Positions 8,781 through 38,899 of a stretch of 64,000 nucleotides of DNA are shown here, in pieces (the stretch's first letter is position 1; every line of letters starts with the position of its first letter). A model generated the notes under the pieces. It saw only the letters and a list, made by a program, of their open reading frames with translations. It did not search any database and was not told the origin of the DNA. A program made the translations under genes and the position numbers. The stretch comes from Nitrospirota bacterium. GTDB lineage: Bacteria; Nitrospirota; UBA9217. The DNA is taken from contig DATIZR010000117.1 of assembly GCA_035516965.1 (NCBI GenBank), positions 1 to 64,000 on the forward strand, written 5' to 3'.

Positions 8781-10646
8781 TTACGATATCTCCGCGAGCC
8801 CGGCGAGCTGCTGATCGAACTCCTTTGCCTTCGCGTCATGCTCGTTCGTAACGGCCTGGAGCTCGGCAAAGCGCGCATCGATCCTTGTCTTGTTGTCGCG
8901 GATTGCCTGCGACAGCCGCTTGATGTCCAGGGCCTTGCCCTTGATCGACACCTCAAGGAGCTTCTGGGTGTCCTGCTCGACATCATACTCCAGCTTCGTG
9001 ATCTCTTCCTCGAGGTCGGCGATCTTCTTCTTGAGAGCGCCGAGGACCCGGGACCTGTCGGACACGATGCCGGTGCGGAGCTTCTTCGCGTCCTTCCTGT
9101 TGCCGTTCCTGTCCCCGTCCTGCTTCTTTCCCTTCTTCGTACGCACGCCGCCCTCGTCGCTCCATCCCACGCGCTCGAGGAAGTCAAGGTAGGTCCCTTC
9201 GAATACCGAAACGGAGTCGTTGTCGTAGACGATCAGCTTGGTCGCCACGGCCTCGAGGATCAGTTCGCTGTGGGTCACGATGATGACCGCTCCGTCGAAG
9301 GCCTCGATGGCCTCGATCAGCGAATCGATGGACTCCATGTCGAGGTGGTTCGTGGGCTCGTCGAGCATGAGCAGGTTCGCCGGGGAGACCAGCAGCTTGC
9401 CGAGGAGCACGCGGCTCTTCTCGCCGCCCGAGAGCACGCTCACCTTCTTGAGCGCGTTGTCGCCCTCGAACATCATGAGGCCGCAGATGGCGCGGGACTC
9501 GCCCTGGGCGTAATCGGGGTGTGCGTCCATGATCTCCTGGAGCGCCGTCTTGTCCGGCCTGAGCCGGTTGATGTTCGTCTGGCCGAAGTAGGCGATCCGG
9601 GTGTTCGGGTGGAGCTTCACCTCGCCGCCCGTGGGCGACATCTCGCGGGCGAGGAGGTTCAGGAGCGTGGTCTTGCCCTTGCCGTTCTTTCCGATCACGG
9701 CGATGCGGTCCTTTTTCCCGACGGCGAACGAGAGCCCGTCGATCAGCGGGGGCCCGTCCGGCGAGAACCCGAAGGAGAGGTCCTCCACGGTCATGAGCCA
9801 CTTCGCCTCGAAGGGCGCGGACCGGAACTTGAAATCGAGCGATCTGATCTCCTCGAGCTTGTCGAGCTGCTCATGCCGGGCGAGCGCCTTGATGCGCGAC
9901 TGGACCGCGCTGGCCTTGGTCGCCTGGGCGCGGAAGCGGTTGATGAACTGCTCGACCTCCTTGCGCTTCTTCTCGTCGTTCTGGCGCGTCTTCTCGTAGA
10001 TCTCCTCTTCCATCAGGATCTGGTCGTAGAGCTTCTGCGTGCCGCCCGCCACCTTCCGCATCTTGTAGCGGTGGATGATCATGGTATGGGTCGTGACGCT
10101 GTCCATGAACTCGCGGTCGTGGGTGATGATGATCATCTCGTTCCGCCAGGCGCGCAGGAACTGGGTGAGCCAGCGGACCGAAACGATGTCCAGGTAGTTC
10201 GTGGGCTCGTCCAGGAGCAGGAGGTTCGGCTCGGACACGAGCACCTTGGCGAGGTTCAGACGCACCTGGTACCCGCCCGAGAGCGACGAGGGGTGCCTGT
10301 CGAAGTCGTCGTTCGTGAACCCGAGGCCGTGCAGGATAGCCTCGGCCTTGTACGTCTCGTCGATGTGGTCCTCGTTCACCGGGAGCGCCAGGCAGGCTTC
10401 CGCGAGCACCGTGTCCTCGGTGAAATGGATGTGCTGGGAGAGATGGCCCACGGTATAGCCCGAGGGCATGGTGATCGTGCCTGCGTCCTGGTGCTCTTCG
10501 CCCAGGATCATGCGGAAAAGCGTTGACTTGCCATGGCCGTTCCTGCCCACGAGCCCGACCCTTTCGCGGGAATTGACGGTGAAACCGACGCCGTCGAACA
10601 GGAGCTGCTTGCCGTAGGATTTTTCGATATTTGTGACTTGAAGCAT
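8781..10646 (-). CDS. ABC-F family ATPase
   Basis: 621 residues with two ABC domains and no membrane segments. Domain 1 has Walker A GRNGHGKST, signature LSGGYQVRLNLAK and Walker B LLLLDEPTNYLD. Domain 2 (from about residue 315) has GKNGKGKTT, LSGGEKSRVLLGK and LLMLDEPTNHLD. A charged linker of about 80 residues (EEIYEKTRQNDEKKRKEVEQ...) joins them, and the last ~90 residues form a coiled coil, as in Uup and related ABC-F factors. ABC-F proteins act on the ribosome or, for Uup, in DNA/ribosome-linked processes; I would not assign EttA, Uup or resistance function from this alone. Confidence 0.9.
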   Translation of the reverse strand: MLQVTNIEKSYGKQLLFDGVGFTVNSRERVGLVGRNGHGKSTLFRMILGEEHQDAGTITMPSGYTVGHLSQHIHFTEDTVLAEACLALPVNEDHIDETYKAEAILHGLGFTNDDFDRHPSSLSGGYQVRLNLAKVLVSEPNLLLLDEPTNYLDIVSVRWLTQFLRAWRNEMIIITHDREFMDSVTTHTMIIHRYKMRKVAGGTQKLYDQILMEEEIYEKTRQNDEKKRKEVEQFINRFRAQATKASAVQSRIKALARHEQLDKLEEIRSLDFKFRSAPFEAKWLMTVEDLSFGFSPDGPPLIDGLSFAVGKKDRIAVIGKNGKGKTTLLNLLAREMSPTGGEVKLHPNTRIAYFGQTNINRLRPDKTALQEIMDAHPDYAQGESRAICGLMMFEGDNALKKVSVLSGGEKSRVLLGKLLVSPANLLMLDEPTNHLDMESIDSLIEAIEAFDGAVIIVTHSELILEAVATKLIVYDNDSVSVFEGTYLDFLERVGWSDEGGVRTKKGKKQDGDRNGNRKDAKKLRTGIVSDRSRVLGALKKKIADLEEEITKLEYDVEQDTQKLLEVSIKGKALDIKRLSQAIRDNKTRIDARFAELQAVTNEHDAKAKEFDQQLAGLAEIS

Positions 10647-36264: not shown

Positions 36265-36368
36265 GCGCTCCCTTGTGGTATACTAAGAATTACCAGGCGG
36301 TTAAGAGGACCCCTGATGTCCTCTATGACTGCCCGGAGTGCTGCTCAAAACTTCAAAGGGAGGCTCTC

Positions 36369-36857
36369 ATGGATGCTCTGGAACTGGCAATGAGGATGGA
36401 AACGGACGCAATAGCCTTTTACACCGAGGCCGCTCGCAAGACCAGGTACCCGGCGGGGAAAAAGATGTTCGAAGCGATCACCCAGGATGAACGGCGTCAC
36501 CTGGAAATGATCGCAAAGCTCGTGAAAGGCCTCCATATCACCCACAGCGATGTGACCCCCCTGCAGAATGTGAAGACCGTGTTCGAGGCGATGAAGTCCG
36601 AAATGATGCAGAAAGCCGAAGCGACCCAGGATGAGCTCGAAGCGTTCAGGATCGCCATGCGGATGGAAAAAGAAGGGATGGAGCATTATCAGAAGACCCT
36701 CGCGCACGCCACCAAGGACCTGGAGCGGACGTTCCTGGAACAGCTGATCCGGGAAGAGCAGCAGCACTACGACATTTTTGCCAATACCTACCAGTTCCTG
36801 TCCGATACGGGGAACTGGTTCATGTGGGAGGAACGGGGCATTGTCGAGGGCGGATGA
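36369..36857 (+). CDS. Rubrerythrin-type ferritin-like protein
   Basis: 162 residues from ATG 36369, after AAGGGAGG; the frame is open further upstream but that part is not domain-like. The four-helix bundle shows ETDAIAFYTEAARK, QDERRHLEMI (E41-x-x-H44), RMEKEGMEHY and REEQQHYDIFA (second ExxH), a complete di-iron site. No rubredoxin domain. Likely oxidative stress protection or iron storage in the cytoplasm. Followed by a small gene with an SD of its own. Confidence 0.85.
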   Translation: MDALELAMRMETDAIAFYTEAARKTRYPAGKKMFEAITQDERRHLEMIAKLVKGLHITHSDVTPLQNVKTVFEAMKSEMMQKAEATQDELEAFRIAMRMEKEGMEHYQKTLAHATKDLERTFLEQLIREEQQHYDIFANTYQFLSDTGNWFMWEERGIVEGG

Positions 36858-37228: not shown

Positions 37229-37251
37229 GAGCCCGGACAAGGTCCGGGCTC
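37229..37251. terminator. Bidirectional terminator between convergent operons
   Basis: GAGCCCGGAC and GTCCGGGCTC form a perfect 10-bp stem with a three-base loop. On the minus strand it lies 26 bases after the stop of the small Cys peptide gene and is followed by TTTG. Confidence 0.85.
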
Positions 37252-37276: not shown

Positions 37277-37339
37277 TCAGCAGGAGCTTTTGCACTTGCA
37301 GGTGAGCGCCATTTTTTTCGTTACCTTCTTGATCGTCAT
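37277..37339 (-). CDS. Putative 20-residue Cys-rich RiPP precursor peptide
   Basis: ATG at 37339 reads a 20-codon frame to TGA at 37277. The peptide has a basic leader-like half (TIKKVTKKM) and ends in ALTCKCKSSC, so three cysteines in CKCKSSC close the chain. AAAGGAGGAGG lies at the right distance upstream, one of the strongest ribosome binding sites in the window. It starts 53 bases after the stop of a radical SAM/SPASM gene on the same strand, and a perfect terminator follows, so the gene pair is bounded. SPASM enzymes commonly modify such short peptides, often at Cys. The leader is very short for a RiPP, and the coding status rests on context rather than homology. Confidence 0.65.
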   Translation of the reverse strand: MTIKKVTKKMALTCKCKSSC

Positions 37340-37392
37340 TCTATTCCTCCTCCTTTCTCGCGTGACGATGGTATATGGGCATCAGTCAGTGC

Positions 37393-38523
37393 TTAAAGTA
37401 TACCATAGAGAGTACAGCGATAGGGGTCTTTTCCTCCCTCCCCGCTCATGAGCTCCGCACGGTAACGGCATCCTCCCCGGCACACCTCGATATAGTCGCA
37501 GTCGCAGGCAAGGTCCTTCAGGAGGACGGGTTTCATCTTCTGCCAGGCCGGCCTGAGTCCCTGATCTATAGTGCCGATCGCACGATCACCGTAAAAGGTG
37601 CATTTCGCGGCCTTTCCGTCTGCCATTACGGCCATCAGATGCAGTCCGCATCCGAAGCCCTGGCCTGAGGAATGAAGGCCGCCGCCAAATCCGTACCCCA
37701 GGTATTTGCCGCCCTCCTCGGGACTGACGACAAGCTCGGTGTGTTGCTTCAGCCGGCCTACAGCGCAGGGCACGTCAACGGTCCAGTCCTTGATCCCAAG
37801 GTCGCGGAACAACTTTTCCATTGCATCGAAATCCTTCAGATTGGCCCGATGCACCATGGTCGAGACCGATACATCGAAACCGGCATCGAGGGCGAGACGG
37901 ATCGCCTGCAGGGTACGCGTGAACATGCCGGTGCCCCGGACGACATCGTGGGCCGCTTCCAGCCCGTCAATGCTGACCTGTATCTCGTCGGTCTTCAGCG
38001 ACTTAAGCAACTCCTTCCGGAGCAGCACGCCGTTGGTGAACAGCACCTTGCGCAGGAAGAAGTCGGGAAGCATTTCGTTGATCTCGCTAAACCTGCTGTG
38101 CAACAGAGGTTCTCCTCCGGACAGGAGGAGGCGCAGCCCCTGCATCTCCTCGAACTCGGCCAGTATGCCGCGTATCTGTTCAGGCGAAAGTTCATTGCCC
38201 GCCCCTTCCCCGCTGTAGCAGTGCTTGCATCGCAGGTTGCAGGAATCGGTTATCTGGAGCTCCAGATAGCGCAGGGAGGGGACAGGGGCCTGCCGGAGCG
38301 CGGGTCGCCGTGAAACGATTTTTTTCTTGGTGAGAAGATCCTCATCCATGCAGTAGTCGATGAACGCCCCGTCCTTTGACCGGCAGCCTTCGCCGGTCAT
38401 GCACCCTTTCATGAAGCGGAACGAATCGGCATCGAGCTCGTACAGCTCGTCATTGTCGATGTGATAGATCGCCGGTGTTTCCAGCCATTTCAGCACGGCC
38501 CGGCCCGAAAGATGATAGGTCAT
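37393..38523 (-). CDS. Radical SAM/SPASM peptide-maturase-like protein
   Basis: 376 residues. The radical SAM motif is CNLRCKHC (Cys95, 99, 102), followed by LLLSGGEPLLH. The C-terminal SPASM region has GCGLHLMAVMADGKAAKCTFYGD and CDCDYIEVCRGGCRYR plus a final Cys, enough for two auxiliary clusters. Residues 1-70 are separate from the barrel, with ETPAIYHIDNDELYELDADSFRFM resembling a PqqD/RRE-type or leader-binding part, and Cys at 41, 47 and 58. Such enzymes install thioether, C-C or other links in small peptides. The only nearby peptide is CKCKSSC-ending, directly downstream. A TATAAT lies just before the ATG with no Shine-Dalgarno visible. Confidence 0.85.
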   Translation of the reverse strand: MTYHLSGRAVLKWLETPAIYHIDNDELYELDADSFRFMKGCMTGEGCRSKDGAFIDYCMDEDLLTKKKIVSRRPALRQAPVPSLRYLELQITDSCNLRCKHCYSGEGAGNELSPEQIRGILAEFEEMQGLRLLLSGGEPLLHSRFSEINEMLPDFFLRKVLFTNGVLLRKELLKSLKTDEIQVSIDGLEAAHDVVRGTGMFTRTLQAIRLALDAGFDVSVSTMVHRANLKDFDAMEKLFRDLGIKDWTVDVPCAVGRLKQHTELVVSPEEGGKYLGYGFGGGLHSSGQGFGCGLHLMAVMADGKAAKCTFYGDRAIGTIDQGLRPAWQKMKPVLLKDLACDCDYIEVCRGGCRYRAELMSGEGGKDPYRCTLYGIL

Positions 38524-38569
38524 GGGGTTATTATAGCACCGGGCAGGTGAATTTGTTATAATGGGCGGG

Positions 38570-38899
38570 ATGAGAAAAGATCAGGGTATCGGTAAAACAC
38601 TGTGTTTGAATTTCTGTGCCTACTACAAGCCGGGCAGGAATGAAGAGCTTGCCTGCCGGGGGTATCGGGTCATAGAACGCCTTACGAAGCAGGGCAGGCG
38701 CATCCCCCTTGAGCGGAAGGAGCAGGAACGCGACGCCATGACCGATGACGCGGTCATCCGGAGACTGTGCGTTGCCTGTGATTTCAGGAAGGACGGCTGC
38801 GATTTCGCGATGGACCGGAAGGCGCAGCCTTGCGGCGGCTTTCTGCTCCTCGGTCAGCTTCTGAGAGCGGGCATCATCACGCCGGACGATATGGAGTGA
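38570..38899 (+). CDS. Cys-rich small protein divergent from the radical SAM gene
   Basis: 109 residues from ATG 38570; ATG 38561 is an in-frame alternative but overlaps a TATAAT. Not recognised. Seven cysteines in two groups: LCLNFCAYYKPGRNEELACRGY near the start and LCVACDFRKDGCDFAMDRKAQPCGG later, which could bind an iron-sulfur cluster or zinc. It diverges from the radical SAM gene across a 46-base gap with two facing TATAAT boxes, so shared regulation is plausible. The 2-oxoacid oxidoreductase genes follow on the same strand. Confidence 0.65.
   Translation: MRKDQGIGKTLCLNFCAYYKPGRNEELACRGYRVIERLTKQGRRIPLERKEQERDAMTDDAVIRRLCVACDFRKDGCDFAMDRKAQPCGGFLLLGQLLRAGIITPDDME

Follow-up and report, generated by a model that had tools for sequence, protein, structure and literature searches.

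Does the DNA that follows a radical SAM enzyme gene in a Nitrospirota bacterium encode the substrate of that enzyme in a frame of only 20 codons? Genes of this size are overlooked by standard annotation. We analyzed the question starting from a window of 64,000 nucleotides (the whole stretch of DNA under analysis, from contig DATIZR010000117.1 of assembly GCA_035516965.1). A sequence-only reading of the window had described a SPASM-like enzyme gene, a 53-base gap, a strong Shine-Dalgarno sequence, a 20-codon frame ending in CKCKSSC and a perfect terminator, and all of these features are present in the sequence. The gap of 53 bases separates the enzyme stop from the peptide start, and the terminator (37251-37229) falls just beyond the interval which that reading had covered. 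The locus comprises the following features.

37393..38523, minus strand: radical SAM/SPASM-type enzyme ORF of 376 aa, putative maturase, with a PF04055 match
38299..38523, minus strand: PqqD/RRE-like N-terminal domain of ~75 residues, assigned by motif (DELYELDxxSFxFLxxC...FxDYCxxEGIL); the motif is kept in 86 homologues
38218..38241, minus strand: radical SAM motif C95-x3-C99-x2-C102, invariant in 86 aligned homologues
37414..37650, minus strand: SPASM-like auxiliary cluster region, C292-x10-G-x4-C308 ... C340-x-C342-x5-C348-x3-C352-x17-C370, assigned by Cys conservation
37346..37356, minus strand: Shine-Dalgarno sequence AAAGGAGGAGG of the peptide gene, read from the sequence
37277..37339, minus strand: precursor-like peptide gene of 20 aa, MTIKKVTKKMALTCKCKSSC, with a conserved, near-invariant tail
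37229..37251, minus strand: intrinsic terminator with a perfect 10-bp stem and a T-rich tail, identified from the sequence
38561..38899, plus strand: small Cys-rich protein gene, divergent from the enzyme gene; possible accessory gene, by adjacency in relatives

The Cys-rich protein gene at 38561-38899 adjoins the enzyme gene in 39 of the 61 distinct loci with enough flanking sequence, and its product has no Pfam or NCBIfam match. A rubrerythrin gene (36366-36857, plus strand, in the window; also at L080) lies near the enzyme and the peptide in families f1, f15 and f23, and near the unlinked peptide gene of G017.

The small frame was searched across 396 Nitrospirota genomes with a DNA pattern for TCKCKx(S/T/C)C-stop, and the reversed pattern served as a control. 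The tail pattern was found in 112 of the 396 genomes and the reversed pattern in none, well above what chance would give. Part of the tail is set at the amino-acid level by the search pattern that retrieved the loci, so the independent weight lies with the conservation of the upstream half of the peptide, of the Shine-Dalgarno sequence and of the frame length, and with the whole-genome control. The peptides of the 115 distinct loci are 19-20 aa long (one frame was called at 22 aa through an upstream start), a strong Shine-Dalgarno precedes them nearly everywhere, and the consensus reads M-x-I-(K/R)-K-V-S-K-K-x-(A/S)-x-T-C-K-C-K-(S/G)-S-C. Hardly any variation is found in the core TC-K-C-(K/H)-x-S-C, where the Ser and Thr beside the cysteines are almost as conserved as the cysteines themselves, and third codon positions vary freely. 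Across the last eight codons of these loci, entropy at codon positions 1, 2 and 3 is 0.17, 0.12 and 1.07, respectively, which indicates that the peptide is under purifying selection. Most genomes with the enzyme but no match to the pattern contain tail variants that the pattern missed (SCKCK, ICKCK, NCKCK, VCKCK and CKCH). As the sequence-only reading had proposed, we looked for the frame near homologues of the enzyme: a frame of 20 aa that ends in the same tail lies within ~200 nt downstream of most of the first-examined homologues, and the C-K-C-(K/H)-x-S-C tail is kept with synonymous substitutions. The peptide sequence is conserved even among relatives whose enzymes share only ~45% identity. 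The 20-codon frame is a gene. It is usually present in a single copy per genome; at L089 (G305:C26), it occurs in two near-identical copies ~1.5 kb apart. Viral contigs gave no match to the peptide.

A frame this short, with its own Shine-Dalgarno and terminator and with 5' structure in relatives, might alternatively be a leader or attenuator peptide, or simply a chance ORF. This interpretation is contradicted and retains almost no credence: in the window, no frame is translated between the peptide and the terminator, the amino acids are conserved at ~45% enzyme identity while third positions are free, and the peptide gene changes place without the genes around it.

By sequence, the enzyme belongs to the radical SAM proteins and has what appears to be a variant SPASM domain. 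PF04055 (Radical_SAM) matches the 376-aa protein (E=1.1e-21) and was found in 26 of the 26 enzyme members tested. Among 86 homologues, C95, C99 and C102 are invariant (CxxxCxxC) and seven further cysteines are ~99% conserved in SPASM order. Relative to the usual arrangement (CX9-15GX4C - CX2CX5CX3C - C), the enzyme has CxC in place of CxxC (CX1C vs CX2C), and the Pfam SPASM model gives a weak match to one of the 26 members. No listed NCBIfam model reaches its equivalog cut-off: the best 25 models score the enzyme at 60-105 bits and their curated cut-offs are much higher (105 vs 400 bits for the best model, 79 vs 265 for mycofactocin, 61 vs 381 for PqqE). A geopeptide/GeoRSP system was rejected, the GeoRSP model being far below its cut-off (68 vs 400). 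SkfB (5e-24) and PqqE (6e-15) are among the proteins of solved structure closest in sequence, and they align over the radical SAM core. SPASM maturases (SkfB, PqqE, MftC and the ScmE, WgkB and GeoRSP models) resemble the enzyme in the radical SAM core, the seven auxiliary cysteines and a nearby short peptide gene; they differ in having CxxCx5Cx3C where the enzyme has CxCx5Cx3C, and the substrate peptide proposed here matches no family. At two loci, L135 (G331) and L138 (G285), stops break the enzyme frame and the peptide is intact, which may reflect assembly error or decay.

The N-terminal ~75 residues of the enzyme appear PqqD/RRE-like by motif, and leader recognition would presumably take place there. 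By eye, the clearest PqqD-like case is the N-terminus of the L033 enzyme, LGDEAAEFLRLCDGTRTLREL (LCDGTRTLREL). The PqqD HMM (PF05402) matched none of the 26 enzyme members at E<=1 and nothing in the genome either. An AlphaFold (AF2) model of the enzyme built from four sequences was too poor for use (pLDDT ~40).

If the peptide is the substrate of this enzyme, the two genes should be distributed together. The enzyme was found in 27 of 60 relatives, in addition to the window's own genome, and at E<=1e-50 in 118 of the 396 Nitrospirota genomes. Enzyme and pattern-defined peptide are found together in 107 genomes (odds ratio ~531, Fisher p ~1e-76, uncorrected for shared ancestry). When the tail variants are counted, 115 of the 118 enzyme genomes possess the peptide, 114 of them in intact form. 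The remaining copy, a CKCHQSC peptide gene (L256, G047:C158), is out of frame by one base when compared with G024; the genome is 65% complete and the frameshift is likely an assembly error. The peptide was not detected in G347 and G008, where the enzyme lies at a contig end, nor in G293 (96% complete), which is the only genome whose lack of the peptide has no obvious reason. Loss or breakage of the frame beside a retained enzyme, the outcome that would have spoken against the pair, is therefore not what was observed. The peptide occurs without a detected enzyme in five genomes, at least two of which are incomplete. Plasmids gave no match to the enzyme.

The sequence-only reading had also placed the precursor downstream of its maturase, as in a minimal RiPP system. 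The pairing is conserved and the peptide gene lies 3' of the enzyme gene at 75 loci (median gap 54 nt, range 26-193), but this layout is not obligatory: at 36 loci the two genes are unlinked and still co-occur, with 10 further loci too close to a contig or locus edge for a call. In f16, f5, f20 and other families, the peptide gene stands alone amid unrelated genes. Co-occurrence without adjacency indicates a functional link rather than mere neighbourhood, and is stronger evidence than adjacency. An encoded precursor conserved with its modifying enzyme is expected of a RiPP system, and such conservation is found here (107 shared genomes out of 112 with the peptide and 118 with the enzyme, or 115 of 118 with variants). 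In our interpretation, enzyme and peptide form a new minimal system of RiPP type, in which the peptide would be modified by the enzyme.

The same data bear on a simpler role, in which the peptide acts unmodified as an intracellular metal binder through its CxC...C cysteines and the enzyme has another target in the same pathway. Three invariant cysteines with Lys/His variation beside them would suit such a peptide, as would the 36 loci where the genes are unlinked and the metal/siderophore-type transport genes that are linked to it in some genomes. We nevertheless consider this improbable, because a free-standing ligand accounts poorly for the almost one-to-one distribution of the peptide with a SPASM-type maturase and for adjacency at 75 loci, and the conservation of the flanking Ser and Thr exceeds the needs of simple thiol ligation.

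The Cys-rich core and the SPASM-type enzyme are shared with SCIFF/ranthipeptides and sactipeptides, from which the system differs in having only three cysteines in a 7-residue tail and a 12-residue leader. None of the models for sactipeptide or Cys-rich-peptide maturases came near its cut-off on the enzyme. A small basic toxin or bacteriocin, matured or neutralised by the enzyme, would likewise be basic, short and rich in cysteine, and its maturase could belong to the sactipeptide-like class. This is very improbable: a single near-invariant core extends across the phylum without the strain-level diversity expected of a weapon, and no immunity or export genes were recognised beside the peptide. 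The conservation of the product instead suggests a housekeeping molecule rather than a strain-specific bacteriocin.

In the RiPP-type system that we favour, the first 12 residues of the 20-residue peptide, rich in lysine, would be the leader that the enzyme recognises. The enzyme would modify the core TC-K-C-(K/H)-x-S-C, and a radical reaction at Cys/Lys or neighbouring residues is the most likely chemistry. No dedicated protease or exporter gene is present beside the locus. General proteases with genes elsewhere would probably cut off the leader, and TldD/TldE are candidates for this step; this pair is encoded in 5 of the 6 genomes tested, including the window's own.

How the peptide gene is expressed provides further indications of its role. 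At many loci, for example L050-L058, the enzyme gene overlaps at its 3' end with a sigma-70-like promoter (TTTACA-16-TATAAT), and a promoter-like match was found at 48 of 115 loci vs 0.7 expected by shuffling, with part of the -35 box also under coding constraint. The position of this promoter in the last enzyme codons suggests that the peptide is transcribed on its own; in the window itself, no sigma-70-like promoter of the peptide gene was found. Many peptide 5' leaders (L050, L078 and others) contain two hairpins with conserved ANGAA loops, mostly AUGAA, spaced 18-21 nt from loop to loop, and most f16 genomes present three such hairpins. The second hairpin, CCCU-AUGAA-AGGG, overlaps the Shine-Dalgarno of the peptide gene. 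The element is absent from the sequences searched in f1, the window's own family.

This element is a conserved RNA structure. In 37 sequences, standard pairs make up 99% of the pair cells, and each of the four pairs in hairpin 1 varies at both positions. The covariation score reaches 0.552, compared with 0.156 for shuffles and no more than 0.214 for slid controls. Because these 37 sequences were selected partly by pairing, the test was repeated on sites selected by the loop motif alone: all four pairs formed in 52 of 67 sites vs 11 expected, with a maximum of 20 in 2000 reshufflings. Two close short hairpins with conserved loops, overlapping a Shine-Dalgarno or the 5' arm of a terminator, are also found in mini-ykkC (guanidine-II) RNAs and ANTAR targets. 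Both were rejected as identifications. The loops here are ANGAA pentaloops rather than the ACGR tetraloops of mini-ykkC, and no Rfam 15 family matches the element. ANTAR targets are tandem hairpins with hexanucleotide loops in which the first base is A and the fourth is G (PMC3369931), whereas the element has pentaloops with G at position 3; the ANTAR protein model PF03861 had no match in 14 genomes, and control genomes were equally silent. We propose the tandem ANGAA-hairpin element as a candidate for a new regulatory RNA class.

The same element is found ahead of other genes. We searched with a covariance model of the element (R1) and with a broader model (R2) whose training included the TonB leaders of G055/G059 type and of G071, R2 being run on 31 genomes; the E-values of both models are rough. 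With R1, the peptide leader was the best match in most genomes tested, and the additional matches, one strong in G071 and two weak in G059, all lie ahead of TonB-dependent receptor genes. With R2, every non-peptide match in f16 up to E ~0.024 precedes a TonB-receptor ORF, in eight further genomes, at distances of 66-190 nt (one at 20 nt, owing to an over-extended start). The element-bearing TonB-receptor leaders are L216, L217, L236-L245 and L213. Other weak R1/R2 matches in f11, besides G071, were inside coding genes where inspected and were taken as chance; the weak R1 matches that were retrieved had no tandem hairpins on inspection. Peptide and TonB-receptor genes therefore share leaders. 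This link comes mainly from one genus (f16, taken as Thermodesulfovibrio-like), whose occurrences are not independent events, together with one f11 genome (G071), and it does not reach the window's own family. The absence of a nearby transporter, as claimed for the window by the sequence-only reading, holds true there, but elsewhere the element common to peptide and TonB-receptor genes provides an indirect link to transport.

In 17 TonB leaders a common layout was found: tandem hairpins P1-P2, a terminator, then P3-P4. The 5' arm of the terminator overlaps the 3' arm of P2, and folding favours the terminator in the TonB leader (-30.2 kcal/mol, z -4.5), which suggests that P2 and the terminator compete, as in tandem-hairpin antitermination. 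At L213 (~9293-9350, minus strand, G071:C5), a 9-codon frame (GTG...TGATG) between the element and the TonB gene overlaps the receptor start; it starts like a degenerate precursor (VIEKILGGV), and translational coupling is possible. The operons encode TonB receptors, Peripla_BP_2, a FecCD permease, an ABC ATPase, a CbiA/ParA-type NTPase, TrmO_N and DUF4198; in G071, they encode CbiM, a CobN-like chelatase and a methyltransferase with weak similarity to CpaM. From these contents, we infer that the peptide takes part in a response of metal, metallophore or corrinoid-like acquisition.

Among known systems, methanobactin and other metallophores resemble this one in their small Cys peptide and, in some genomes, in the presence of TonB receptors in the same apparent regulon; the putative modifying enzyme is here a radical SAM protein rather than MbnB/MbnC. 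The PQQ system (PqqA/PqqD/PqqE) is alike in its precursor of ~20 residues, its radical SAM/SPASM-type enzyme, a TldD-type protease encoded elsewhere and a conserved product. It differs in that the core TCKC(K/H)xSC lacks the Glu-Tyr pair, no PqqB/C/F genes are found alongside, and the PqqD-like region is fused to the enzyme and only motif-like.

The peptide could be modified to a redox cofactor, like PQQ or mycofactocin, that serves an anaerobic enzyme and is no metallophore, in which case the TonB link would reflect a common metal or redox signal. Consistent with this, the gene is usually single copy and spread across the phylum, including genomes without the element in any TonB leader; the enzyme is of the PqqE/SkfB-like radical SAM class and the precursor is as short as PqqA. 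No conserved partner dehydrogenase gene is found beside the unlinked peptide genes, however, and the core has no Tyr or Val-Tyr as in PqqA or MftA. A redox cofactor is conceivable but, in our view, unlikely. In the literature searched, no paper turned up for CKCKGSC or for the combinations tried on Nitrospirae RiPPs and on Thermodesulfovibrio TonB/radical SAM.

We conclude that the locus probably represents a minimal, chromosomally conserved maturase-precursor system of RiPP type in Nitrospirota, with a role in metal or cofactor handling and under control of the element in relatives of the window's genome. Its product would be a housekeeping molecule: a metallophore, a metal-handling peptide or a peptide-derived cofactor. 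In many relatives, the tandem ANGAA hairpins over the Shine-Dalgarno would control translation of the precursor, and in Thermodesulfovibrio-like genomes the element would control TonB-dependent receptors through apparent transcription attenuation. That peptide and receptors have the element in common suggests that both answer to one signal; we infer a ligand for the RNA and a direction of regulation. A bolder version can be offered tentatively, and we give it less than even credence: a phylum-wide, undescribed, radical-SAM-matured peptide product with the core TCKC(K/H)xSC, made and taken up under joint control of a new ANGAA-hairpin RNA class, translationally at the precursor and by attenuation at TonB operons, with the RNA perhaps sensing metal or the product.

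Selection on the peptide is strong throughout a phylum of anaerobic and environmental bacteria, and the peptide provides a specific candidate for the substrate of an orphan radical SAM enzyme without a curated family name. Independently of the peptide, the ANGAA element may represent a regulatory RNA of a new class. Should one switch control both translation of the precursor and the outer-membrane receptors, the cell probably makes the molecule and takes it up, or responds with it when a metal or cofactor is scarce. Together, the pair and the element may point to an undescribed peptide-derived molecule for metal or cofactor handling in these bacteria.
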